A stretch of DNA of 64,000 nt, from the NCBI GenBank assembly GCA_021806135.1, contig JAJZYB010000003.1:28797-92796 (forward strand), written 5' to 3'. The stretch is from Thermoplasmata archaeon. Its GTDB lineage: Archaea > Thermoplasmatota > Thermoplasmata > Lutacidiplasmatales > UBA184. Under the pieces are notes generated by a model. The model saw only the letters and a program-made list of their open reading frames with translations. It ran no database searches and had not been told where the DNA came from. This document shows positions 10,877-42,025 of the stretch, one piece after another (the first letter of the stretch is position 1; each line of letters starts with the position of its first letter). A program made the position numbers and the translations under genes.

Positions 10877-11587
10877 CTAGGCCCGGGAAGTGAAGAGCGA
10901 GCGGACAGCGGCACTGACCTCGGCATGCACCGCACCGGGGGTGCGGTTCCCGTTCACGGGGACGAACCCGTACTCCCGGGCCATCCAATCGAACTCCTTG
11001 CGTAAAAGGGCCTGGAAGGCGAAGAAGCTCTCGAACCGGTCCCGGGAGAGACCCAGGTCCATCCCCGACTCCCAGTAGTCCAGCGACCCGTAGCGGGCGA
11101 AGGCCCGGTGCAGGAGCAGTTCCTCCCGGGTGTCTAGGAAGACGGTGAGGTCCGGCTTGAGCGCGAAGGAGTAGAGCCGACGGGCCCACGCCCGGGGTGC
11201 GCCCCGGACGATGGCCCGCGCCATGAGGGTGTAGATGTAGCGGTCCGCGAGCACCACCGAGCCGGAGGCCAGGGCCGGGATGATCTTGTTCTCGAGCTGG
11301 TCCGCAAAGTCCACGGCATAGAACAGGGCCATGGTGGTGGCGCCCAAAACGTGCCCCTGCTTGGCCTGGTCGATCTCCTCGCTGACCAGGGTCGAGCGGC
11401 GCAGCCCGGTGTCCACCACCGCGTGGCCCTGGATCTCGAGGTCCTCCTTGAGCAGGGAGCACTCCGTGGTCCGGCCGGAGCCGTCGGCCCCCTCCACCAC
11501 GATGAGCTTACCCTGGAGCCGGCGGAAGGGGACGCCCGGCAGCCGGGTGCCGAAGGTTCGCTCCGGGGGGGCCACCCTAGGCGTCAT
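10877..11587 (-). CDS. Thymidylate-kinase-like P-loop protein, paralog 1 (Walker A Lys replaced by Arg)
   Basis: LIVVEGADGSGRTTECSLLKEDL, VVLADRYIYTLMARAIVRG, KPDLTVFLDT. CGG (Arg) read at the Walker A Lys position. Confidence 0.85.
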   Translation of the reverse strand: MTPRVAPPERTFGTRLPGVPFRRLQGKLIVVEGADGSGRTTECSLLKEDLEIQGHAVVDTGLRRSTLVSEEIDQAKQGHVLGATTMALFYAVDFADQLENKIIPALASGSVVLADRYIYTLMARAIVRGAPRAWARRLYSFALKPDLTVFLDTREELLLHRAFARYGSLDYWESGMDLGLSRDRFESFFAFQALLRKEFDWMAREYGFVPVNGNRTPGAVHAEVSAAVRSLFTSRA

Positions 11588-12278
11588 GGAGCAACGACTC
11601 CTCCTTCGGGAAGCCCGACAGGTGGGGGGCGAGCCGGCGCCGGACCTCCCGTTGGAGCACCTCGATCCCCCGGCCGGCGCGGATGACCTCAAAGTGCTCC
11701 GTCCGGGCGAGCCGGTCGTACTCGCGCTTGAGCATCCCCTGGAAGCGACGGTAGCTCTCCCCCACGTTGTCGGAGAGCTTCAGGTCCATGCCCGCCTCGT
11801 AGTAGCTGATCTTGTCCCGGGAGACCTTCTTGCGCTGGAAGGTGGTCTCCACCGGGACCTGGAAGTAGAAGGTGAGGTCGGGAGCCTGGGCAAAGGAGTA
11901 GAGGCTCCGGACCCAGCCGGGGTCGCAACCCCGGGCCACGTCCCGGCTGAAGGCCGTGTAGATGTACCGGTCGCAGATGACCACGTAGCCGGCCCGAAGC
12001 GGGGGCAGGATGTGCCGTTCGTACCGGTCCGCGAAGTCCGTGGCGTGAAGCAGCGAGAAGGTGGTGGGGGTGAGGAGCCCCCGCTTCTTGCCCCGGCGGA
12101 TGATGGCCGCCACCAGGTCCGAGGAGTTCCACTCGGTGAAGAAGACCCGGTGGCCCTGGGACCCGAGCCACTTCCTCAGCAGCTGGGCCTGGGTGGACTT
12201 TCCGCTCCCATCCAGCCCTTCGAAGACCACCAGGCAGCCAGGTCGGGTACCGGGAGCGCCATCAGCGGAGGATACCAA
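11577..12278 (-). CDS. Thymidylate-kinase-like P-loop protein, paralog 2
   Basis: LVVFEGLDGSGKSTQAQLLRKWL, VVICDRYIYTAFSRDVARG, APDLTFYFQVPVE. Confidence 0.87.
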   Translation of the reverse strand: MVSSADGAPGTRPGCLVVFEGLDGSGKSTQAQLLRKWLGSQGHRVFFTEWNSSDLVAAIIRRGKKRGLLTPTTFSLLHATDFADRYERHILPPLRAGYVVICDRYIYTAFSRDVARGCDPGWVRSLYSFAQAPDLTFYFQVPVETTFQRKKVSRDKISYYEAGMDLKLSDNVGESYRRFQGMLKREYDRLARTEHFEVIRAGRGIEVLQREVRRRLAPHLSGFPKEESLLHDA

Positions 12279-17100: not shown

Positions 17101-18156
17101 TCAGTCCTGGCTTTCCACCGAGAGGAGCCGGTTGAGGCCATCACAGGTCAGGATGACCCCCAGGCCAAAGACCAGGATCCAGAGGGCAGGAAAGACCACC
17201 CCCCACCACGGGTTCGCGGAGGCGAGCGGGGTCCAGGCGGTGGCCCCATTGGCGAGGACCCAGGTCCATTCGGGAAAGTTGAAGGAAGGGAGGAAGGGAA
17301 GGGGCGGGGGAGCGAGGGGGGGTGCCACCAGGCCGTGGCAGAGGGCGGGATTGATGAGGGTGTACGCGTACTGCAGCCCTCCCAGGATGGTCAGCACGGA
17401 GGCGAGCGTGGTGGGGACCTGGGCAAAGACCGGATAGACGCTGTTGGGCAGCACGTGCCGGATCATCAACCGGGAGCCGGAGGCGCCCGAGGCCCGGGCC
17501 GCCTCCACGAAGGGCAACTGGGCGACGGTCCGGGCCCGGGCCCGGACCACGCGGGCGTACGGCGCCCAGACCACGGAGAGGACCAGGAGGCCGAAGACCC
17601 AGAGCCGGTCTGCAGGGTTCACCACGTCGAGGACGTAGATGCTGGCCAGCGCCACCACCACGAACTCCGGGACGGCGAGGAAGGAGTCGGTCAGGGCCAT
17701 GAGCACATCGTCGAGGATCCCTCCTCGCAGGCCGGCAAGGGTGCCCACGAGCAGCCCGACCAACACGGCCGGGACGATGATCTCGGTGAGCAGCAGGAGG
17801 TCGTACGGGGTGCCCTTCACGAGGCCCTGGAGCACGTTGAACCCCAGGCCGCCGGTCTCTCCCAACGGGAAGGCACCTCCCTGGAGCGGCCAGAGGCTGA
17901 AGGTCGGGCCGCTGATCGTCGGACAGGCGAAACCGGTGCCCACGTGGATGGGCAGGACGGCGGGGTTCCCCGGATAGAGGAGAGGGGAGAGCGCCCCCAC
18001 CCCGGCGTAGATGCCCAGGAGCACGATCCCCGCGATCAAGGACGGGGTCCGGGCCAGCCCGGCGAATCTCGCCCGTCCCTTCCGGTCGCCGGTGCCGGTC
18101 TCCTCGTCGCCCGGCACGGAGGCCCCGCCCGTCGGGCTCTTCGGTCCCGGGGCCAC
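17101..18156 (-). CDS. ABC transporter permease (DppC/OppC-like)
   Basis: Several TM segments; EAARASGASGSRLMIRHVLPNSVYPVFAQVPTTLASVLTILGGLQY EAA-loop motif. Confidence 0.85.
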   Translation of the reverse strand: MAPGPKSPTGGASVPGDEETGTGDRKGRARFAGLARTPSLIAGIVLLGIYAGVGALSPLLYPGNPAVLPIHVGTGFACPTISGPTFSLWPLQGGAFPLGETGGLGFNVLQGLVKGTPYDLLLLTEIIVPAVLVGLLVGTLAGLRGGILDDVLMALTDSFLAVPEFVVVALASIYVLDVVNPADRLWVFGLLVLSVVWAPYARVVRARARTVAQLPFVEAARASGASGSRLMIRHVLPNSVYPVFAQVPTTLASVLTILGGLQYAYTLINPALCHGLVAPPLAPPPLPFLPSFNFPEWTWVLANGATAWTPLASANPWWGVVFPALWILVFGLGVILTCDGLNRLLSVESQD

Positions 18157-20901
18157 TCAGCGTCCTCCTCCCCGGGACGGCTCGGCGACCCGGGGGTCCA
18201 GACGCCGGCTCAGGGCATCCGCTGCGATGTTCACGGCGAGGATGACCAGAAGGAAGAGGAAGGCGAGCACGGCCACCAGCGGGGGCGCGTTCACGGAGTA
18301 GGCCTGCCCCAGGATCCCTTGGACGAGGAACGCGCCGAATCCGGTGTCGTTGAAGAACCACTCCGCCAGGGTCTGGATGACGAGGAAGATGGCGAAGGTG
18401 TTCCCGAACGTGTATACGTAGACGGGCAGGACCAGGCGAGAGGTGTCGTGCCAGAGAAGGCGCCGTTCTGGCACCCCGCGGGAGCGGGAGGCCACCAGGT
18501 GGAAGTTCTGCCGGTGGCTCGCGGCCCCCAGACGAGCGAACCGGAGGAAGAGGGCGGAGTAGGCGATCCCGATGACGAACGACTGGAAGAGCGTCTTGGC
18601 GAGGATCACCTCCTCGGCCGGCCAGGCACCGGCCAGGGCCCCGTCCATCAGGGGGAAGCCGGTCGGGAGGGTCTGGCCGAAGTAGCCGATCCAGGAGGGA
18701 AAGCCTCCTCCGTGGATCGAGAACCAGGTCCCGGAGGGCAGGGTACCAAAGGGGGAGTCACCAAAGGCCTGGTTGAAGGGACTGTAGAAGACGAAGGTCA
18801 AAACCAAGACCAGGGCGACCAGGGGGAAGTACCCTCCGAAGGCAGCGAGGGTCCGGGCGGCGTGGTCCGCCTCTCGTCCTTGTCGCCAACCCGCGAGAAG
18901 GCCCAGGGGGTAGGAGACCAGGGTGGCGACCGCCAACGAGATGGCGGCGAGTTCCAGCGTATCCGGCAGGTAGAACTCTAGAAGGGTGATCACGGGGGCT
19001 TGGGAGATGAGGCTCCCGTTCGGCTCCAAGCGGTAAACGAATCCCCACTGGCCGGTGAACAGCTGAGTGTTGAAGGTCACCCAGCCGGGGAGGAATCCCG
19101 TTCCCGACGCGGTGCTCCCGGTGAGGGTGGGCACCACCACGGAGAGGACGTAGAGCAAGGTCGTGCCGAGAAGGACCTGGGGGATCGCGAGCAAGAGCCG
19201 GCGTCCGAGCCAGAGGAGGAACGGGTTCGCCGCTCGCTTCTGGTGCCGGGTCTGCCAGCCGGGGAGCCAGGTGGGGAGGAGCCCCGGCAGTAGTCCTCCC
19301 CATTCCCCGGTCCGGAGGGCCGTTCCCACCAGGACGGCGGTCTGGCGCGTCCGAGAGAGAGGGTGACCCACGCCAGCCCGGATCCGCCGGGTGACGAGGG
19401 CGCTGGAGAAGGCCCCGGCGCCGCCCCAAAGGGCCACCCCGCCCACCACGGCCAGGAGCGCCCACACCGGCGGCCCCCCCAGGAAGGTGAAGGGGGAGAC
19501 CGGGGCCGGCGGCTGTGCGTGGATGGTGAGGTTGGCGTCGGAGACCTCCCCCACCGCGTCGGTGACGTTAACGAAGACCACGTAGGTCCCGGCCTGCGCG
19601 AACGTGTGGACCTCCACCGGTGAGCCACTGGACGAGGGCCCGTCCCCGAAGCTCCAGGAGTACAGGAACGGACCTTCCCCTCCGGCAACGGCGGCCTGGA
19701 ACGTCACCGTGAGGGGCGCGGTGCCGCTGCTCACGCTGGCGGTCAAGTGGGTGGTGAGTGGCGCGGTCCCGTTGGGGGCCCCGCCGAAGGGAACGTAGAG
19801 CGTCCAGCCCTGCTCCGTCACCCCCCCGGGTGCGGCGTACCCTCCCAAGAAGGTGTAGAAGTCGTTCCCGAGGGAAGGGTCGGGCAGGAGCGCGCCCGAG
19901 ACCAGGGGCGGGGGGCCCACACCGGAGGCATATCCCACGGGGACCCACGTCCCGTTGGTCCACAGGAACGAATCATTCAGGGGCCCCGTGCGTCCGACCC
20001 CTCCAAAGACCAGGGGACGGCCGTTCCCCGTGCTCACCTCGGCCGCACCGGACCGGGGGGAGGGCGCGCTGGAGGGAGACAAGGCCCGCCAGGCTCCAGA
20101 GCGGAAGGTCCACGTGTCGTTGTAGAAGCCCTGGGAGCCTTCTCCTCCGAAGAGGACCAGGCGGCCGGTCTGGGCATCGTAGCTCAGATCCGCCCCCGAG
20201 CGGGGGGAGGGGGAAGGGCTCAGGGAAAGCAGGGTCCAGGTCGTCCCGTTGAAGACCCAGGTCTCCCCTGACGGGCCTGCCGTTCCCTCTCCTCCGAAGA
20301 GCAGGAGTTCCCCGAGCGCCGGATCGTAGGCCAGCGCGGAACCGGAGAGGGGAGGGGGGGAGGACCGGGGGAAGAGCTCGGTCCAACCGGAGGTACGGAC
20401 GTAGGCCCAGGTGTCGTTCAGCGGCCCGTGGGGCCCCAATCCTCCGAAGAGCACCAAGGCCCCGAGGATCGGGTCCCACGCGAGGGTTGCGTCCGCCCGG
20501 GGAGGCGGACTGTGGATGGTGGAGATGTCGTACCAGGCCTGGGTCCCGAAGGCGTTGAAGAACCCCAGGGTCTCGTTGCAGAAGAGCCCGCAACTCGAAT
20601 TCCCCCCGAAGACGAGGGGGAATTGAGGGCTCCCTTCGTAGAGGGCGGCGCTGGCGTTCGCTACCGGGATGCCACTGCCGGGGCCCTGGCTCCACACCAC
20701 CGTGAGACTACCCGGGACTGCCGCCGCAAAGGTCCCCGACCCGGAGGGACCTGCGGTTCCCGGGCCGCTGGAGAGGCGGGGGGCCGCAGCGGGCCCGAGG
20801 AGCAACACGACCGCGAGAAGCGCGATCCCGAAGGCCAGGAGGTACCTTGGACGGCGGCCGCGAGGCCAGGTCCACGGGCCGGGAGCGGCCTTCACCGCCA
20901 T
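18157..20901 (-). CDS. Fusion protein: signal anchor + kelch-like beta-propeller + PKD domain + TM + DppB-like ABC permease
   Basis: Kelch-type repeats (LVLFGGLGPHGPLNDTWAY, LLLFGGEGTAGPSGETWVF, LVLFGGEGSQGFYNDTWTF); PKD (FLYSWSFGDGPSSSGSPVEVHTFAQAGTYVVFVNVTDAVG); permease (LLLAIPQVLLGTTLLYVLSVVVPTL...DTSRLVLPVYVYTFGNTFAIFLVIQTLAEWFFNDTGFGAFLV). Confidence 0.88.
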   Translation of the reverse strand: MAVKAAPGPWTWPRGRRPRYLLAFGIALLAVVLLLGPAAAPRLSSGPGTAGPSGSGTFAAAVPGSLTVVWSQGPGSGIPVANASAALYEGSPQFPLVFGGNSSCGLFCNETLGFFNAFGTQAWYDISTIHSPPPRADATLAWDPILGALVLFGGLGPHGPLNDTWAYVRTSGWTELFPRSSPPPLSGSALAYDPALGELLLFGGEGTAGPSGETWVFNGTTWTLLSLSPSPSPRSGADLSYDAQTGRLVLFGGEGSQGFYNDTWTFRSGAWRALSPSSAPSPRSGAAEVSTGNGRPLVFGGVGRTGPLNDSFLWTNGTWVPVGYASGVGPPPLVSGALLPDPSLGNDFYTFLGGYAAPGGVTEQGWTLYVPFGGAPNGTAPLTTHLTASVSSGTAPLTVTFQAAVAGGEGPFLYSWSFGDGPSSSGSPVEVHTFAQAGTYVVFVNVTDAVGEVSDANLTIHAQPPAPVSPFTFLGGPPVWALLAVVGGVALWGGAGAFSSALVTRRIRAGVGHPLSRTRQTAVLVGTALRTGEWGGLLPGLLPTWLPGWQTRHQKRAANPFLLWLGRRLLLAIPQVLLGTTLLYVLSVVVPTLTGSTASGTGFLPGWVTFNTQLFTGQWGFVYRLEPNGSLISQAPVITLLEFYLPDTLELAAISLAVATLVSYPLGLLAGWRQGREADHAARTLAAFGGYFPLVALVLVLTFVFYSPFNQAFGDSPFGTLPSGTWFSIHGGGFPSWIGYFGQTLPTGFPLMDGALAGAWPAEEVILAKTLFQSFVIGIAYSALFLRFARLGAASHRQNFHLVASRSRGVPERRLLWHDTSRLVLPVYVYTFGNTFAIFLVIQTLAEWFFNDTGFGAFLVQGILGQAYSVNAPPLVAVLAFLFLLVILAVNIAADALSRRLDPRVAEPSRGGGR

Positions 20902-20927: not shown

Positions 20928-23105
20928 CTATACCGTTCGGTCACGGGAAGGCCCCGTGGGGGAAGCTCGGAGCGCCTCCCGGAGCCGGTTCGCCTCGAGG
21001 ATCGGGGGGAGGCACGAGGTCCCGGCGCAGACGAGGGCGCGGGGCTCGCCAGAGCCCTGGATCTCTCCCGCGGCCCCCGACGGGAGGGCGAACGCCCCGT
21101 CGAGGGGGGCCCGCAGGACCACCTTCCTCGGGTGGAAGGTGGTGAGGGCCGCCTGGAGAAGCGGGCTGCCGGTCCCCTTGGGACCCTGGATGAGCACGTG
21201 GACCGGCTCCGTCCGGGCGATCCCTGCGGCCAGGGCGCTCCCGGCGGCGAAGAGGCCATGATGGGCCAGGCGACGGCTCAGGGAAGCGACCAGAGGCAGG
21301 TAACGGTCCCTCACCAGGGGATCAGAGGTGAGGGCCTCCAGATGCTCCCACGCCAGGGCCGCGGCGGCGTTGGGGGAGAGGTGCGGGGTGTCCTCCAGGG
21401 GGACATTGGGAAGTTCCCAGTTCCCCACCTTCGGGCCGTCGTAGAGGGAGGGGGCGAGGTCCCGCAACAATCCGTCCGTCGGGGAAAGGTAGGACTCCTG
21501 AGCGAGCTCCAGGATCTTCCGGGCCGTTCTGAGGTAGCGGTCCTCCTGCGTCGCCTCTGCCACCTTCAGGAGCCCCCCGGCGAAGCTCACCTGGTCCTCC
21601 AGGAGTCCCCAGATCCGGGGCCCGTCGGGGGTGAGCTGGTGGGCGACCCCGCGGGAGGGTTCGTATGCCTCGTCCAGGAACCGGTCCACCGCGGCCCGGG
21701 CCCGCTCCAGCAGCATCTTTTGGCCGGTCAGGCGGCCCGCGAGGGCGAGATTGCCGGCGAGGATCCCGTTGAGGGACGCGTAGAGGGCCGGGTCCACTGC
21801 CGGGGTGGGGCGTCCCTCCCGCGCCCTCCGCATCTTCGCCTCCGCCTTTAAGAGCAGGTCCTGGGCCTCTTCCGGCTTGCGTCCCAGGGTGGCGGCGAGC
21901 TCCGTCAGGGGCAGGAGGCGGTAGAGCACGTTGCGCTCCGGGTCGTGGGGCATCCGTCCTTCGGAGCCGATCCCGTAGCGCCAGCTGATCGCCTTGAGCT
22001 CGTCCGGGCTGAGCAAGTGCTTGAGCTCGCTGCGGGACCAGGTGAAGTAGCTCCCGTCGTCCCCCGGGGCGTTGTCCGCGTCCTGGCTGGCGCCGAACCC
22101 GCCCCGGGGGGCCTGGTCGAGCACGGAGAGGACCCACGTGGAGATCCCCTCCATCGCCTCACGGAACCGGGGCTCCCCGAGGGCCTCGAAGCCTTCCCGG
22201 TACGCCCCGAGCAGGTGTCCGTTGTCCACGGCCATCTTCTCGAAGTGGGGGATGTGCCAACCCTCGTCGACGGAGTAGCGGTGGAAACCCCCGCCCAGCT
22301 GGTCGTACAGCCCGCCCTCGGCCATGCGGGTGAGGGTGAGACGTGCCATCTCCGCCGGGGCAGGATCGCCGGTCTGGTGGGTCAGGTAGAGCTGGAACGA
22401 GGAGGCCATCGGATGCGGGAACTTCGGGGCCCCACCGAATCCCCCGTGCGTGGGGTCGAAGTGTTCCTGGAGCGCCTGCGCCACCTCGTGGACGAAATCG
22501 TGCCCGGCCGGTGGTTCCCGGGGGGCCGCCATCCCCTTCAATCCCTCTTGGATCGCTCTCGCCTGCCCCTTGAGGGCGTCGCGCTCCTCCCGCCAGAGCC
22601 GTGCCACCTCCCGGAGCACGCGTCGGAAGCCGGGCCGTCCTCCCTGATCTTCCGGGGGGAAGTACGTGCCCCCCAGGAAGACCTCCCCCTGGGGGGTCAG
22701 GAACGCGGTCAGCGGCCATCCCCCCTGCCCGGTGAGCGCGTTCACCTGGAGCTGGTAGCGTCGGTCCACCTCGGGGTTCTCGTCCCGGTCCACCTTCACC
22801 GGCACGAACAGTTGGTTCACCAGCGCCGACACTTCAGGGTCGGAGTAGGTCCCCTCGTCCATCACGTGGCACCAATGGCACCAGGCCGCCCCGATGTCGA
22901 GCAGGATCGGCCGTCCGGTCTCCCGGGCCGACCGGAAGGCGTCCTCCCCCCAGGGATACCAACCGATCTCCTGCTCGGCCGCGGAGCGCAAGTAGGCCGA
23001 GGGGGAGCGAGCGAGGCGGTGGGCGGGGGGAACGGGGGACCGGGTCACGGGGCTCCTTGGGCCGGGGCGAGCCCTCGACGGAGGGAAAAAGGCTTCCCCG
23101 CTCAA
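20928..23105 (-). CDS. DUF255 / thioredoxin-domain protein (YyaL/SSP411 type)
   Basis: IGWYPWGEDAFRSARETGRPILLDIGAAWCHWCHVMDEGTYSDPEVSALVNQLFVPVKVDRDENPEVD...GQGGWPLTAFLTPQGEVFLGGTYFPPED. Confidence 0.95.
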   Translation of the reverse strand: MSGEAFFPPSRARPGPRSPVTRSPVPPAHRLARSPSAYLRSAAEQEIGWYPWGEDAFRSARETGRPILLDIGAAWCHWCHVMDEGTYSDPEVSALVNQLFVPVKVDRDENPEVDRRYQLQVNALTGQGGWPLTAFLTPQGEVFLGGTYFPPEDQGGRPGFRRVLREVARLWREERDALKGQARAIQEGLKGMAAPREPPAGHDFVHEVAQALQEHFDPTHGGFGGAPKFPHPMASSFQLYLTHQTGDPAPAEMARLTLTRMAEGGLYDQLGGGFHRYSVDEGWHIPHFEKMAVDNGHLLGAYREGFEALGEPRFREAMEGISTWVLSVLDQAPRGGFGASQDADNAPGDDGSYFTWSRSELKHLLSPDELKAISWRYGIGSEGRMPHDPERNVLYRLLPLTELAATLGRKPEEAQDLLLKAEAKMRRAREGRPTPAVDPALYASLNGILAGNLALAGRLTGQKMLLERARAAVDRFLDEAYEPSRGVAHQLTPDGPRIWGLLEDQVSFAGGLLKVAEATQEDRYLRTARKILELAQESYLSPTDGLLRDLAPSLYDGPKVGNWELPNVPLEDTPHLSPNAAAALAWEHLEALTSDPLVRDRYLPLVASLSRRLAHHGLFAAGSALAAGIARTEPVHVLIQGPKGTGSPLLQAALTTFHPRKVVLRAPLDGAFALPSGAAGEIQGSGEPRALVCAGTSCLPPILEANRLREALRASPTGPSRDRTV

Positions 23106-29000: not shown

Positions 29001-32000
29001 TCACGACTCCGCGGAGGATCTCGGCAGGGTCCGGCAGTCGCAGTACGGGTCCGGGCACTCCGGTGGGAGATCCTGGGCGCGCAGTGTGCTCCGCATCCTC
29101 TCCAGCGTCTGAGAGAGTTCCTGCCGGAACCGCGTAAGCTCCTCGTTGGTGAGCATCCAGAAGTGTCCTCTCCCATCCGGGGGGTGGAACACCCCCACCT
29201 CGATCGGGGCCGGCAGCGCGAGAGCGTAGCAGGAGAGCTGGAAACCGAAGCGCTCCCGGGCCTCCCCGATCTCGGCGGGGACGTCCCCGGTCTTGTAGTC
29301 CACCAGTCGGGGAGGCTGCAGGGAAGGGAAGTACGCATCCCACCGGCCGTGGACCGACCCATGCTCCGTCACCACCGTGACCTCCTCCTCGCGGATCACC
29401 GGCCCCGGGAACCGGTCCTCCACCGAGCGGGTGAGCCTCACCCAGTCCTCGACCGGATCGCCCGCGTCCCCGCCGGGCAAGGGTGGCTTCCCGGCCCGAT
29501 GGATCCGTTCATGGAAACGGATGCCCTGCTCCCGGGCCGTCCTTTCCGGGGCTCCTGTGCCTTCCCGGCCTTCCCGGGGCTCCTTCCCGCCCGGGAGGCG
29601 TCCCGCCCGGAAGCCTTCCTGGAGGAGGACGAACGCCCGGGGGCAACGGTGGAAGAGCTCGACCTCGGAGACCGTCCAGGAGACCTCGGGGGGGATCCAC
29701 AGGGAGGGGCCCGCCCATCGGACAAGAGGCGGGTCCCTCGAAGCGGGCAGCCCCTCCATCGAGGGCGAAGGGGGGGACATCCCCGGGGTTGCGCCCGTCC
29801 TAACCGCTCCCGGGGAGAGGGACCCGCCCCCCGGCATCCCCGCGGCCGGGAGCATCCGGCTGAGCGCCTGATGCCATCGCTCCAGCCGGTGGATCCGCAC
29901 GCTCCCGCGGGGATCCCCCACCCCGGTCACCAACAGGTGCGTCATGGCCCGGGTCATCCCCACGTAAAGCAGCCTCTCTGCCTCCGCCTGCTCGGCGGCG
30001 TGGAGCTCCTCTTCCAAGGGGCTACGGGCCCCGGGAGGGCGCAGGGGGGCGTCCGGATGGTCGGTGGGCAAACGGAATTCGACCTCCCGTCCCGTGGGAG
30101 AGACCAGCAGGCGGTCAGAGAGCGCCTTCCACTGTCGGTGGGTCTGGGGCAGGACGACCACCGGGAACTGGAGACCCTTGGCTCCATGCACGCTCAGCAC
30201 GTTCACCGCCTCCCGGGCCAACTCGACCTCCGCCTCCCCCTCGTCCTCTCCCGAGCGCATCCACTCGGTGAGCTTCCCGCGGATGCCCTCCAGGGTGGAC
30301 ACCCCCTCCCGGGTGAGCTCGCGGATACGGTCCAGGAGCTTCTCCACGTTGGCCAAGGCCAGACCACCCCGGTCGTCGTCGGCCAGCGGGGCCCAGGCAC
30401 CGAGGCGGTCCAGGGCCTCCCGGATCAGGGCGGCGGGGGGAAGATCGCCGGTCCGGGCGCTCAGGTCCTCCAGAAGGTGCCACGAAGCGGCCACCGGCCC
30501 GTCCGGTTCCTCCCGGGCGGCGTTCTCGAAAGCGAGCCGGAGCGACGCTCCGGCGGGCACCCCCGCGAACCAGTCGGCGATCTCGGGATCGGAGAAGGCG
30601 AAGTACGGCGATCGGAGCAGCGCGTAGAGGGAGACGGTGTCTTCCGGGGCCACCAACGTGGACACGAGGTTGAGGACGTCCAGCACCTCTTGGCGCCTCA
30701 GGAACCCCCGGCTCTGTCCGGGAACGGCCGGGATCTTTCGCCGCCTGAGCTCCCGGAGGAAGAGTCCCTGGTGGGTCCGGGCCGACAAGAGAATGGCCAC
30801 GTCCCCCGGTCCCAGTGGATGCGGATCCTCTCCATCGTCCGCCCGCCAGGGAGGGACCATCCCTCCCTGCCGGAGCCGCTTTTCGATCCAGTCCGCCACG
30901 AAACGCGCTTCCCGGTCATCGTCGGGGGAAGGACGGAAGAGCACGCCGAGCGGGGTGGGGTCCACCACCGCCGGCCCCGGCACCCCTGGAGAAAGCGCTC
31001 CCGCGCGGGACCCGGATCTCGCCCGGTGCTCTTCCGGCAGGAAGAGGAACTGAACCTCGGTGCGGTAGGTCACTTCGGGCGCCTCCACCGGCGTGTAGGG
31101 GAATTCCGCGTTCCGGAAGAGCTCGATGAACCCCGCGTTCACCGTCCTGAGCAGCGGGTCCGCGAACCGGTGCGTCTCCGCCAACGTGGTCCGTCGCGCC
31201 GAGGGCAACCGTTGCTCCACCTGGCGCAGGGTGCCCACCGCCCCCCGGAACCCGTAGATGGACTGGTGGGGGTCCCCCACCGCGAAGAGGGTCCGGGCTC
31301 CGGGGTGCTCCGGTCCCCGCAGGGCGAGGATGAGCTCCACCTGCCTCAGGGAAGTGTCCTGGAACTCGTCCACCAGCAGGTGGTGGATGGTTCCCCTGAT
31401 CCGTTGTCCCGTTTCCTCTTCCCGGACGAGCGCGAGGGTCTGGGCCTCCAGATCGTCGAAGGTGAGGACCGAGCCGGCCCGTTCGGCTTCCCGAAAGGTC
31501 TCTTGGGTCTCCCTCACGAGAAGGCTCAGGGCCTGGAGCCGGCGGGGATGTCCGGGATCCGGGGACCTGCCGGTCCGGAGCTCCCGGTCGGCCTGGTCGA
31601 GGAGGTCCTCGGTCCGGAGCTCGAAGCCCCGTGTCATTCGACCGAGGACCAGTTCCCGGACCGCGTCCGGCCCGTAGGTGGAAGCGAGCTCCAGGTACGC
31701 CTCCCAGGCCATGCCCCCGGAACGGAAGAGCCGCTGTCGCGTCGCCTCCCAGCTCTCCTCGCGGAGCGTGGCGGAGTCCGCTTCCTCGAGGATATCGAAT
31801 CCGAGGGGAACGCCCAGCCGGAGCGCGCGCTGGGGGTGCTCGCGCAAGAGGCGGGCGCAGGCCCCGTGGATGGTCCCGATCCTTCCCGCTGGGAGGGCAT
31901 CGAGCACCTCCTTCCAGTAGGCGCGGCCGGGCGCGTCGGGGACTCCTTGACGTTCGAGCCGGACCGCCTGCTCGATCCGGCGTTGAAGCTCGTTGGCCGA

Positions 32001-32183
32001 GGCCCGGGTGAACGTGATGACCAGGAGAGACCCCACCGCCTCCCGTCCGTTCTTCCCGTCGGCCCGCCCCAGGCGGAGGATCCGCAGGACCCGCTCCACC
32101 AGCGCCCGGGTCTTCCCCGTCCCGGCCCCGGCCACGACGATCTCGTCCCCCAGCCCGGGGGAAGCGGTGCCCGGCAGGCTCAT
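29001..32183 (-). CDS. AddA/RecB-like UvrD-superfamily helicase-nuclease
   Basis: IVVAGAGTGKTRALVERVL, LLVDEFQDTSLRQVELIL, FAVGDPHQSIYGFRGA, SVHGAKGLQFPVVVL, LLYVGMTRAMTHLLV, C-terminal LVDYKTGD nuclease motif. Start M at 32183 follows the AddB-like gene with ATGA-type overlap. Confidence 0.9.
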   Translation of the reverse strand: MSLPGTASPGLGDEIVVAGAGTGKTRALVERVLRILRLGRADGKNGREAVGSLLVITFTRASANELQRRIEQAVRLERQGVPDAPGRAYWKEVLDALPAGRIGTIHGACARLLREHPQRALRLGVPLGFDILEEADSATLREESWEATRQRLFRSGGMAWEAYLELASTYGPDAVRELVLGRMTRGFELRTEDLLDQADRELRTGRSPDPGHPRRLQALSLLVRETQETFREAERAGSVLTFDDLEAQTLALVREEETGQRIRGTIHHLLVDEFQDTSLRQVELILALRGPEHPGARTLFAVGDPHQSIYGFRGAVGTLRQVEQRLPSARRTTLAETHRFADPLLRTVNAGFIELFRNAEFPYTPVEAPEVTYRTEVQFLFLPEEHRARSGSRAGALSPGVPGPAVVDPTPLGVLFRPSPDDDREARFVADWIEKRLRQGGMVPPWRADDGEDPHPLGPGDVAILLSARTHQGLFLRELRRRKIPAVPGQSRGFLRRQEVLDVLNLVSTLVAPEDTVSLYALLRSPYFAFSDPEIADWFAGVPAGASLRLAFENAAREEPDGPVAASWHLLEDLSARTGDLPPAALIREALDRLGAWAPLADDDRGGLALANVEKLLDRIRELTREGVSTLEGIRGKLTEWMRSGEDEGEAEVELAREAVNVLSVHGAKGLQFPVVVLPQTHRQWKALSDRLLVSPTGREVEFRLPTDHPDAPLRPPGARSPLEEELHAAEQAEAERLLYVGMTRAMTHLLVTGVGDPRGSVRIHRLERWHQALSRMLPAAGMPGGGSLSPGAVRTGATPGMSPPSPSMEGLPASRDPPLVRWAGPSLWIPPEVSWTVSEVELFHRCPRAFVLLQEGFRAGRLPGGKEPREGREGTGAPERTAREQGIRFHERIHRAGKPPLPGGDAGDPVEDWVRLTRSVEDRFPGPVIREEEVTVVTEHGSVHGRWDAYFPSLQPPRLVDYKTGDVPAEIGEARERFGFQLSCYALALPAPIEVGVFHPPDGRGHFWMLTNEELTRFRQELSQTLERMRSTLRAQDLPPECPDPYCDCRTLPRSSAES

Positions 32184-35100
32184 CCTTCCCTCCGGAACGT
32201 CCCCGCCAACCGTTCCGTGTCGAAACGGCAGCCCGAGGCGAAGGGACACCCGTCCGCGAACCGGCACCCTTCCCCGCCGGGGGAGACGAACATCCCGTTG
32301 AGCGGGAATCGCCCCTCCTCGATCCCCGACAGCGCTCTTCCCGCAAGGGCCCGCGCCCCTGCGACAAGCTCCCCCACCTGCCTTTCCGGGTCGCCCCGGG
32401 AGGACGTCAAGGAGAGCGCGGCGGCCCGCCCTGGGCGGCCGAGCCAGAGGTACCTCAAGCCTCCAGGGACGACCTTTCCAGCCACCGGGTCCTCGGGCAG
32501 GAGATCGGACAGGGCCGCGGCGTAGAGCGGAAGCTGGAGCGGAGGGAGCTCGCCCTTTCCCGGACGGGCGGGCGGCTTCGACCAGCCCGTCTTGAAGTCG
32601 TCCACCAGGAACCTTCCCGCCCGCCCCTGGTACCAACTCACCCGGTCCACCCGTCCGACCAGGGACCAGTCCCCCCCGGACCGCGATCCCATCCTCCACG
32701 CCGGAAGCGAGGGGGATCCGGGAGCGCTTCCGGCCCCCCGGGGTTGGGGTCCGAAGGCGAGCTCCACGTACGCGGGAGCATATTCCCCCGCGTCCGCCGC
32801 CAGGAGCTCCAGGGCCTGCCAGAGCACGCCGTCCCCCGGGCGCCCTGGCGGTCCAAGGAGGCGCTGACGGACCACTTCGAGACCCGGGGTCACCGGGCGG
32901 ACCCGGCGCAGCTCCTCCTCGATCTGGCGCGCCCCCTGGGCCGCAAGCCCGGCCACCTCCGCACGCTCGATCGTCCGGAGACGCCCGTGGGAGTCCACGA
33001 CGCCCCGTTGGATCTCCTCGAGCACCTTGTGGAGGATCGTGCCGACGGCGCGTCGGTCGTAGTCCTCGACAAGGGGCTCCTCCGTGGGGAGGGCGAGCAC
33101 ATGGGTGAGGTAGAAGCGGAAAGGGCACTCGAGGTAGTCCTGGATCTGGTGGACGTTGACCTGGCCCCGGGCCGTCCAGCCCGCCACCCGGTCCTGGACG
33201 CTCCTTTCCCCCAGGGGCCCGTCCCAAGGGGTCTCCCGGGGCCGGTGCCGTCGGGCGCTCTCCGCACGAAGCCCCCGGGAAGCTCGCGAGAGCGCCTCGG
33301 GGAGGCCACCCCGGGTTACTCTCTTCCGTCCTCCCGCCGTCTCGGGCGGGGCTCCGTCCTCCGCCGTTGCTCCGAGCAGGATGGCATCCTTCCACGAGTA
33401 GACGGCCGGCCCGCGCACTGCCGGCGGCGGGCTCGGCCCCAAGCCGGTGGCAAAGGTCAATTCGGTGAGGAAGGGAGAGGGCAGGGTCTCTTCTCGGGCC
33501 ACCCGACGGGGGTAGGAAAGGTCCAGGGAGCGGCGGGCCTGTCCCAGGAGAGTGAGGAAGACCTCCCGCTCCTGCGTCAGGAGATTGATCTCCCGGGGGA
33601 GGTCCAGGGCTCGGCGCGCCTCCGCCGGGATCAACGGGCTGGGCCCCGTCGAGGGGAACGCCCCCCGGCGGAGTCCGCCGACGAGCAGGTGATCCACCGG
33701 GAGGATCGCGGCATCCCTCAGCCCGCTGACCGGGACCCCGAGCCGGAAGGGCCTTCCCGGGGCCCGGGCGAGCGAGAGGAGCAGGTCCACGAAGGCACGG
33801 AGGTCCCGGACCGGCCACGGCTCGGTTGCCGGGGAGACCCCGAGCTCCCGGGCCCGGGAGAGAACGTCCCCCGGGTCGTTTCCCCCGTGGGCTGCATCCC
33901 ACGACGGCCCTTCCAGGGCGATCCGGGCGCTCCCGAGACGCTCCAGGAAGTCGAGGAGAGGCTGGGGCCGTGGTTCGGGAAGCGCTGCGAAGAGCTCCCC
34001 GAACCCCTTGGCCACATCAGTGAAGTCCTCCTCGCGCAGGGGGCGGGGGAGCCGGCCCAGCCGGGCGGGGGCATTCTCGACCAGCCGGGTGTAATCCTCC
34101 CGTCCCGACCGGGCCCCTGTGGCGAAGAGCACCCGCCGGACCGTCTCGACCGGTCGGTCGAAATACGCCGTGAGCCTCCCCCGGGAGTCCAGGGTCTGCA
34201 GCAGTTCGAGGACCGTCGGCAGGTCGAAATCCTCCTCCAGGACGGCCAGCAGGACCCGCAGCACCTGGGAGGAACGGTCGCTCCGGAGCTCCGGGCGTAG
34301 CTCGAGCCGGGGGCGGAGCCCGTACCGGGGGAAGACCTCGAGGACCCGGTCCGCATACCTCGGCAGGTCCGCCAGGGCCACCATCACCGAGGCCTTCGGG
34401 TCTGCGTCCAGCAACTCCCTCAGTCGGCGGGCAAGCCCCTCTACCTCGTCCTGTTCGTTCCGGTACGCGGTCAGGCGGACCGGGTCCGCCAAGGAGTTGC
34501 GCGTCCCCTCCGACGGGTCCTGCTGGATGGCTCGGAGGGTCGCCGGGGAGATGAGGAAGGGCGGGGACCCGGGCCCTTCCGTCGCGTTTCCTCCTTCCCC
34601 GGCGTCCAGATCCACCGACCGGGCCGCCCGTTGGAGCAGGAAGCCGCGGAGCGCGCGTTCGGCATGGCTCTGGGCGATCCAACCGTCGAGCACGACGAGG
34701 GCGGGAGAGAAGGCTGCCTTCGCCAGCCGGCCCGGCAGGTCCCAGAGGTCCGCCCCGGAGGTGGTGGCTCCCCTGCGGTCCAACTCCTGTTGGAACCCCT
34801 TCCAGCGTTCGACCAGTTCCCCGATCGATGGGGGAAACACGGGGGGAGGTCCAGGCCACCGTCCCTCCAGTTCCTTGATCCCCTGGTAGAGCTCCTCCAA
34901 GTAGCCGTTGGAGGGAAGCCCCCCTCCCCCGTCCCCGAGCCTTCGGGCAACCTGGGCCTGGAGCAGCCGGCTCTCGAGCTCAGGGAGGATCGGGCGGGGG
35001 GAGGGGAAGCGCTCCTGAAGCCCCTTCACGGTGAGGATCGTCCCGGTCCGGGCCGCTCCGCCGGCCAGGCGCGCGGCCTCCTCCTGGGCCCACCGGACCA

Positions 35101-35239
35101 GACGCTCAGAGGTGCTCAGGTAGAGTGCCCCGTCCCGGGCGGACCGTTCCCAGACCTCCCGTATCCACCGGCTGCGCGGGCGCCTTTCGAAAGGGGCCCG
35201 AGGCTCCTCCGGGACGGCCAAGGGTCTCTCGCTCCCCAC
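32180..35239 (-). CDS. AddB-like nuclease/inactive helicase subunit (PD-(D/E)XK superfamily)
   Basis: QDYLECPFRFYLTHVLALP...GRFLVDDFKTGW...CRFADGCPFASGC; no Walker A seen at the N-terminus. Confidence 0.82.
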   Translation of the reverse strand: MGSERPLAVPEEPRAPFERRPRSRWIREVWERSARDGALYLSTSERLVRWAQEEAARLAGGAARTGTILTVKGLQERFPSPRPILPELESRLLQAQVARRLGDGGGGLPSNGYLEELYQGIKELEGRWPGPPPVFPPSIGELVERWKGFQQELDRRGATTSGADLWDLPGRLAKAAFSPALVVLDGWIAQSHAERALRGFLLQRAARSVDLDAGEGGNATEGPGSPPFLISPATLRAIQQDPSEGTRNSLADPVRLTAYRNEQDEVEGLARRLRELLDADPKASVMVALADLPRYADRVLEVFPRYGLRPRLELRPELRSDRSSQVLRVLLAVLEEDFDLPTVLELLQTLDSRGRLTAYFDRPVETVRRVLFATGARSGREDYTRLVENAPARLGRLPRPLREEDFTDVAKGFGELFAALPEPRPQPLLDFLERLGSARIALEGPSWDAAHGGNDPGDVLSRARELGVSPATEPWPVRDLRAFVDLLLSLARAPGRPFRLGVPVSGLRDAAILPVDHLLVGGLRRGAFPSTGPSPLIPAEARRALDLPREINLLTQEREVFLTLLGQARRSLDLSYPRRVAREETLPSPFLTELTFATGLGPSPPPAVRGPAVYSWKDAILLGATAEDGAPPETAGGRKRVTRGGLPEALSRASRGLRAESARRHRPRETPWDGPLGERSVQDRVAGWTARGQVNVHQIQDYLECPFRFYLTHVLALPTEEPLVEDYDRRAVGTILHKVLEEIQRGVVDSHGRLRTIERAEVAGLAAQGARQIEEELRRVRPVTPGLEVVRQRLLGPPGRPGDGVLWQALELLAADAGEYAPAYVELAFGPQPRGAGSAPGSPSLPAWRMGSRSGGDWSLVGRVDRVSWYQGRAGRFLVDDFKTGWSKPPARPGKGELPPLQLPLYAAALSDLLPEDPVAGKVVPGGLRYLWLGRPGRAAALSLTSSRGDPERQVGELVAGARALAGRALSGIEEGRFPLNGMFVSPGGEGCRFADGCPFASGCRFDTERLAGTFRREG

Positions 35240-41248: not shown

Positions 41249-42025
41249 ATGAGCGAAGAGCACACCCTGGCCGTGAAGGGGCTGCACGCCTCGGTGGCGG
41301 GGAAGGAGATCCTCAAGGGCGTGACGCTCACGTTGAAGAGCGGGGAGCTGGTGGCCATGATGGGCCCCAACGGTTCCGGGAAGAGCACGCTCGCCTATGC
41401 CCTGGCCGGGCACCCGAAGTACACGATCACCGCCGGGGAGGCGCTGCTGGACGGGAAGAACCTGCTCGCCATGAGCCCGGACCAACGTGCCCGGGCCGGA
41501 CTGTTCCTCGGGTTCCAGTACCCCGTCGAGGTCTCCGGGGTCTCCCTGAGCAAGTTCCTGTGGACCGCCTACAGCCAGATGCATGTGGGGGACGAGGCGG
41601 ACAGCGACCGGTTCGGGGCTGACCTCACCAAGCACCTCGGGTACCTCGGCCTCGACAACTCGTTCCTGAAACGCCCCCTGAACGAGGGGTTCTCGGGAGG
41701 CGAGAAGAAGCGCACGGAGGTGCTCCAGATGGCCACGCTCGCTCCCCGGTTCGCCATCCTCGACGAGCCGGACAGCGGGCTCGACATCGACGCGATCCGG
41801 TCGGTGGGGGAGACGGTGGCGAAGCTGCACAACCCCGGGATGGGGACCATGGTGATCACCCATTACCAGCGGATCCTGAAGTTCATCCGGCCCGATCGGG
41901 TGCACGTCATGGTGGACGGGGTCATCGCGCTGTCGGGGGGTCGGGACCTCGCCGAGGAACTGGAGCGGAAGGGGTACGACTGGGTGAAGGTGGGCCTCGC
42001 GGCCTCCCAGGCCTCCGGCACGTAG
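41249..42025 (+). CDS. sufC: Fe-S cluster assembly ATPase SufC
   Basis: LVAMMGPNGSGKSTLAYALAGHPKYTITAGEALLDGKNLL; FSGGEKKRTEVLQMATLAPRFAILDEPDSGLDIDA. Confidence 0.97.
   Translation: MSEEHTLAVKGLHASVAGKEILKGVTLTLKSGELVAMMGPNGSGKSTLAYALAGHPKYTITAGEALLDGKNLLAMSPDQRARAGLFLGFQYPVEVSGVSLSKFLWTAYSQMHVGDEADSDRFGADLTKHLGYLGLDNSFLKRPLNEGFSGGEKKRTEVLQMATLAPRFAILDEPDSGLDIDAIRSVGETVAKLHNPGMGTMVITHYQRILKFIRPDRVHVMVDGVIALSGGRDLAEELERKGYDWVKVGLAASQASGT

Follow-up and report, generated by a model that had tools for sequence, protein, structure and literature searches.

The 64-kb stretch of Thermoplasmata DNA analyzed here (the window) carries on its minus strand a gene that encodes a surface-type module and a membrane permease as one chain (Table 1). 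The frame runs for 914 aa from its ATG with no internal stops, and in order from the N-terminus it comprises a signal anchor, a six-bladed kelch propeller, a PKD domain, a transmembrane (TM) helix, a cytoplasmic linker and then a full permease domain of the DppB type. A sequence-only reading of the window had described a single uninterrupted frame with a signal anchor, PKD domain, TM helix and permease, and the ORF call, Pfam matches and hydropathy agree with it. The Pfam matches are to kelch models (PF24681 at 1.5e-22, also PF13415 and PF13418), PKD (PF00801, residues 388-455, 2.2e-10) and BPD_transp_1 (residues 664-901, 8e-18), and the hydropathy profile places the anchor at residues 21-39 and a TM helix at ~473-503, followed by the permease helices. 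Where that reading had counted at least four kelch-like repeats, six blades can be seen by eye in the alignment, in company with the Pfam kelch models and a propeller in the AlphaFold2 model. The DppC-like gene reported directly behind the fusion (18156..17101) indeed starts at the first base past the fusion stop codon, and the thioredoxin-like gene upstream may possibly be co-transcribed with the fusion.

Table 1. Coordinates of the fusion gene, its domains and its neighbours in the window
Feature	Position	Strand	Basis
Kelch-PKD-TM-DppB fusion, B2 type, 914 aa	18157..20901	-	Single ORF, ATG start; Pfam; four paralogues in own genome
Signal anchor, aa 20-39	20785..20844	-	Hydropathy 2.57; helix 20-35 in AlphaFold2 model, low confidence at that spot
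Six-bladed kelch beta-propeller, aa 70-375	19777..20694	-	Pfam; profile matches to kelch structures; AlphaFold2 pLDDT mostly 70-90 for aa 80-350; Foldseek matches to kelch
Conserved Cys pair C104-C108, first blade, putative disulfide	20578..20592	-	Invariant in 13 aligned kelch domains
PKD domain (stalk), aa 388-455	19537..19740	-	Pfam PF00801, 2.2e-10
TM helix between ectodomain and cytoplasmic linker, aa 473-503	19393..19485	-	Hydropathy
Arg-rich linker preceding permease TM1, predicted cytoplasmic, aa 504-565	19207..19392	-	Sequence; positive-inside reasoning
DppB-type permease domain, B2 clade, aa 566-905	18187..19206	-	BPD_transp_1; profile match to DppB 8z1v; tree
Coupling (EAA-type) loop of DppB domain, ASRSRG....LLW..TSR.VLP, aa 805-830	18412..18489	-	Alignment of 26 B2 permeases and EAA loop of DppB
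DppC-type permease partner C2, 351 aa	17101..18156	-	BPD_transp_1 3.4e-19; also follows the fusion directly in most relatives
Canonical EAA motif of C2 (VEAARASGA...HVLPN)	17446..17511	-	Sequence; conserved alignment columns
Thioredoxin-like DsbH/DUF255 gene, upstream, gap to fusion 26 bp	20928..23048	-	Pfam 9e-62; L027/L075 synteny

Several other genes of the window, all on the minus strand, may be recorded here. These are two adjacent thymidylate-kinase-like genes (10877-12230), a UvrD-type helicase with a PD-(D/E)XK nuclease domain beside a further PD-(D/E)XK protein (29001-35239), which together form an AddAB-like pair of a kind that is, to our knowledge, unusual in archaea, and a Resolvase-domain protein of 161 aa (176-661), possibly derived from a mobile element.

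The kelch-PKD-DppB fusion is real and recurrent, and the proposal that a kelch-PKD module is joined in cis to a DppB-type permease holds in paralogues and relatives alike. A search of the same genome for BPD_transp_1 returned 20 places, among them four DppB-type domains in frames of 904-956 aa, each adjoining a DppC-type gene; all four frames, located on four contigs, translate as kelch-PKD-DppB fusions, and the other three are 49-52% identical to the window copy from end to end. At the window locus, a sister genome (G161) keeps the same order of DsbH-like gene, fusion, dppC and phosphoesterase-like gene, and the order around a second fusion locus (contig C37) is also kept in that genome. The sequence-only reading had named separate genes for head and permease in sister genomes as the outcome that would speak against a fusion; for the kelch form we found the reverse, as same-genus sisters carry the fusion intact and in the same order. 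More distant relatives encode the permease without a head, and the head is therefore a lineage-specific addition or loss. The source assembly is a fragmented draft of 65 contigs, which lends some room to the idea of two genes joined by an assembly or sequencing error, but a frameshift or assembly artefact is ruled out by the four intact paralogues on four contigs, the further copies in genomes of four genera of one Thermoplasmata family and a uniform GC3 across the joint (0.81-0.91), so that the chance of such an error is vanishingly small.

The sequence-only reading had also proposed a search for other kelch/PKD-permease fusions, and these occur in a narrow part of the class. In a class-wide search of 400 genomes, with two candidates scored per genome, the whole fusion was found only in one family (f1), in genera g1, g3, g5 and g6. 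In 71 genomes of this family, a profile built on the permease alone (A3) assigned 332-453 bits to 51 family members and, across a clear gap, at most 196 bits to the next best proteins, which include canonical OppB. Nothing outside the family exceeded 157 bits when another 220 genomes of the class were sampled. We refer to the permeases of this profile group as B2 and to their DppC-type partners as C2. In a tree of 46 rows, B2 and the canonical OppB of the same genomes form separate clades with support of 100/100.

The heads carried by B2 differ among genera. Kelch-PKD heads are found in g1, g3, g5 and g6, heads composed of a PQQ_2 (PQQ/BamB-type) propeller and CarboxypepD_reg in members from g2 and g4, and bare B2 permeases in g2 and g7. 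Head type follows clade, with all labels requiring 5 changes on the 46-row tree versus 25 in shuffles. The kelch head may have been gained once and then replaced, or it may have been lost, the root of the tree not being fixed. In one genome (G057, L069:7144-11049) the kelch-PKD-DppB chain runs on into DppC to give 1301-1310 aa with two BPD_transp_1 stretches, and a second gene of that genome (L070:1-3600) has the same kelch-PKD-DppB-DppC layout, these single polypeptides measuring about 1200-1300 aa. Another genome (G248, L066:3572-7453, minus strand) encodes an apparent fusion, seen once, in which a DppC-type subunit makes up the C-terminal part of a thermopsin acid protease of 1293 aa (Thermopsin 1.4e-35, BPD_transp_1 5.3e-15); it adjoins a bare B2, and another bare B2-C2 pair of the same genome is flanked by two thermopsin genes. 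We considered thermopsin-DppC chains as a recurrent type and rejected this, as the only instance is in G248 and the other long DppC frames, some of which were checked, were taken as read-through in GC-rich DNA.

Both permease subunits have the features expected of transporter components. B2 and C2 score 65.2 and 69.7 bits against BPD_transp_1 (cut-off 26.4), and the closest solved relatives of B2 are DppB and OppB structures (8z1v at 1.9e-22, 8wd9, 8z21, 8j5q). Matches of the fusion to the NCBIfam equivalogs DppB, OppB, NikB and SapB all fall far under the curated cut-offs; SapB, annotated as a putrescine export permease, is the model that covers the permease region in one stretch, likewise far under its cut-off. 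EAA-type coupling loops are retained in both B2 (26 aligned permeases) and C2. In six genomes (G041, G201, G115, G326, G350 and G197) a single B2 has two or three DppC-type genes in tandem nearby, which may be alternative partners for it.

The source of energy appears to lie elsewhere in the genome. No peptide-transporter ATPase gene was found in the 64-kb window, in agreement with the sequence-only reading; the only ABC ATPase gene found there (41249-42025) was considered as a local motor and set aside, as its neighbours are cysteine-desulfurase-like and SufB-like and it probably encodes SufC. Similarly, no peptide ATPase was found beside any B2-C2 pair of the genome; the genome's sole OppD-OppF pair belongs to a canonical oppB-oppC-oppD-oppF cluster on another contig (C36). 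None of the examined genomes with the kelch form has more than one OppDF pair. Exactly two oligo_HPY matches occur in 11 of the 12 genomes examined from g1, g3, g5 and g6, and none in the remaining one (G115). In one relative (G242, L099) the genes follow each other on one strand as kelch-B2, C2, OppB, OppC, OppD and OppF, and in three others (G263, G314 and G359; L111, L115 and L105) a bare B2-C2 pair comes directly after OppF, with G359 showing OppF alone, at a contig end. Because of this linkage in relatives and the retained EAA-type loops, the simplest reading is that B2-C2 would use OppDF, and the motor is likely an OppDF pair common to several permeases, as judged from a survey of ATPases of the oligo_HPY type. 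The single OppDF pair is thus the best candidate for the cognate ATPase. The OppC of the C36 cluster (L024:7884-9563, plus strand; 559 aa) has ~130 additional N-terminal residues ahead of the OppC_N domain, flanked by two hydrophobic segments; this region has weaker matches in g3 and g6 relatives, and the OppC of g2 is shorter.

A further question is how such a permease would receive its substrate. E. coli DppB inserts a scoop motif, located between TM1 and helix 3, into the cleft of DppA (PMC12136057). The corresponding segment, taken to begin at the TM1 arginine and end at the conserved Trp, has 52 aa in the window protein, compared with 71 for E. coli DppB, 76 for the canonical OppB of the same genome and 72-90 for canonical OppB across the family. 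Nearly all kelch-B2 have 50-61 aa (one has 78) and bare B2 have 50-55; PQQ-type B2 have 72-78 aa in a different, mostly Cys-containing loop without the canonical motif. A scoop stretch of the GL(D/N).P type was looked for in this segment of the window B2 and not found. Given this short segment without a scoop, the established manner of docking a DppA-like protein is unlikely to apply to kelch-B2, although a different mode is possible. The idea that loss of the scoop marks permeases with a head proved only partly right: bare B2 also lack the scoop, and the loss is not uniform because PQQ-type B2 carry their own long loop.

No binding-protein gene was found beside the fusions of this genome, and none lies in the 64-kb window, as had been remarked from the sequence. 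On other contigs there are divergent genes of this kind, with SBP_bac_5 matches under the cut-off: two tandem full genes of 1029 and 1043 aa on contig C29 (L118:6386-12965) and a third, a fragment, on contig C63. Genes similar to the C29 proteins lie near OppBCDF in relatives. The earlier suggestion of a tethered receptor is consequently only partly sustained; it fits the missing scoop, but bare B2 is scoopless as well and large SBP_bac_5-like proteins are encoded elsewhere in the genome. That the head replaces a binding protein is plausible from these comparisons, and the surface anchor that the same reading had offered may likewise be its role.

The head itself is best defined as a propeller. 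In an AlphaFold2 model from an alignment of 5 rows, residues ~80-350 and 380-465 reach pLDDT values mostly of 70-90, with a mean pLDDT of 50.5 and the permease half below 50, and Foldseek matches the head best to propellers of the kelch type (dynein-associated, KLHDC2/3, LZTR1, designed SAKe proteins and galactose oxidase). Invariant across 13 kelch heads are C104, C108, Arg135, Arg234, Arg283 and several Trp. The abundance of N-x-S/T sequons in the ectodomain noted from the sequence was borne out by counting: 11 of its 14 Asn residues lie in sequons, 3 of them belonging to the kelch motif N-D-(T/S), and the permease half has 2. Shuffling predicts 2.4 for the ectodomain, and none of 5000 shuffled sequences reached 11. 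This skew fits an outside, presumably glycosylated head, and together with the signal anchor and topology it points to an extracytoplasmic location. KLHDC2-type propellers, which are intracellular ubiquitin-ligase receptors, supply the best Pfam kelch model and are among the best fold matches, which suggested a similar pocket for peptide C-termini, one that would suit a peptide importer. In KLHDC2, Arg236 and Arg241 bind the carboxylate of such termini (PMC12169847); in a profile alignment the two positions are V and P in the window protein and variable across the family, so a pocket of this type is not supported.

The surroundings of the fusions bear on the possible substrate. In two genomes (L021:2224-5979 and L028:3673-7491) a pro-kumamolisin/S8-like protease with a PKD domain is encoded divergently from a kelch-permease fusion, and Lutacidiplasmatales, to which the host is probably related, have been described with a peptide ABC system and S53, thermopsin and A4 peptidases (PMC9287336). 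The host may have a similar lifestyle.

Our leading reading, to which we assign a probability of about 0.42, is an ATP-driven peptide importer whose head acts as a tethered receptor or docking head. In this mechanism the B2 fusion and C2 would form the membrane channel, and the OppD-OppF pair encoded elsewhere in the genome would power it while shared with the canonical transporter. The propeller-PKD head, held outside by the signal anchor and the second TM helix, would gather or position peptides at the mouth of the channel, or else the polymer or protease from which they come, and would do so instead of docking a free DppA-type binding protein. Import direction, peptide substrate and substrate binding by the head are each inferred. 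The full-length fusions, the distinct B2 clade, the limit of one OppDF pair per examined kelch-type genome, OppDF linkage, EAA loops, missing scoop, nearby acid peptidases and the precedent of GlnPQ argue for this importer. Against it stand the unconserved KLHDC2 arginines (R236, R241), the long loop of PQQ-B2, the C29 SBP_bac_5-like proteins, which could serve B2-C2, the distance of the genome's own B2-C2 pairs from OppDF, the common occurrence of kelch and PKD modules on surface proteins across the class, and the bare B2-C2 pairs, because of which the head cannot be essential to the module everywhere.

The main alternative, somewhat less likely, is that the head serves for docking or anchoring rather than as a substrate receptor. 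It would bind the S-layer, glycans, surface polymers or secreted acid proteases and keep the permease where peptides arise, the substrate entering directly or being handed over by a large, separate binding protein. That homologous permeases carry unrelated heads (kelch-PKD, PQQ-CarboxypepD_reg and the thermopsin on DppC) suggests such a positioning role, as do the Ig-like stalk domains in both propeller types, the dispensability of heads in some lineages, the binding proteins encoded elsewhere and the PKD domain on the neighbouring pro-kumamolisin-type protease. It is weakened by the absence from kelch-B2 of a scoop-length loop to engage a DppA-type binding protein, and by invariant head residues that include several Arg and Trp besides framework glycines, although these could be structural. 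An exporter or sensor resembling SapBC, working without a binding protein and using the head to sense or secure an exported product, seems improbable: the closest solved relatives are DppB/OppB importers, and OppDF linkage in four genomes and the nearby secreted peptidases point to peptide uptake, even if the lack of a scoop-type loop, the one-stretch but far sub-threshold SapB match and the absence of binding-protein genes beside B2-C2 pairs would suit it. A neutral head, from a surface-protein gene fused by chance upstream of a permease and later duplicated, would draw on the stand-alone kelch genes of the class and of this genome, but it is highly improbable given that the heads of the paralogues are ~50% identical, that they keep invariant Cys, Arg and Trp residues, that 11 sequons are present and that an equivalent head of another fold occurs on the same permease.

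In the prevailing view, ABC importers of the Dpp/Opp type require a Venus-flytrap binding protein. Like DppABCDF and OppABCDF, the B2-C2 system has homologues of DppB and DppC in which coupling loops are kept, and its genome encodes an OppD/OppF pair, but the B2-C2 pairs of this genome lack a scoop-length loop and adjoining ATPase genes, and a head is added. SapBCDF likewise has Opp-type permeases, is named a putrescine exporter by NCBIfam and works without a binding protein; unlike B2 it has no fused ectodomain, and the B2 match to it lies far under the NCBIfam cut-off. Sharing of one ATPase set among several permease pairs, which we infer for B2-C2, is familiar from MsiK-type importers, in which MsiK serves sugar transporters; in contrast, the candidate motor of B2-C2 is an OppDF heterodimer. 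GlnPQ and OpuA-type importers have an extracytoplasmic domain covalently joined to the TM domain, and in GlnPQ the binding domains are fused N-terminally to the permease (PMC8025302). Theirs, however, are Venus-flytrap domains on a permease of another family, and the B2 head is a kelch or PQQ propeller with an Ig-like stalk and an additional intervening TM helix on a DppB-type permease. Binding domains fused to permeases are thus known; for a propeller head on a DppB-type permease, the swapping of heads and a protease-permease chain, as for kelch- or thermopsin-permease fusions in general, no description was found in the open-access literature searched.

It is conceivable, as a tentative generalization, that these proteins represent a class of ABC importers without Venus-flytrap binding proteins, in which interchangeable propeller heads (kelch-PKD or PQQ-CarboxypepD_reg), and in one case a protease fused to the partner, serve as receptors or feeders and several heads share one OppDF within a cell. 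If true, this would be a second way to feed an importer, it would make testable the question of whether the receptor must be a flytrap, and it would bear on how uncultured Thermoplasmata may obtain peptides.
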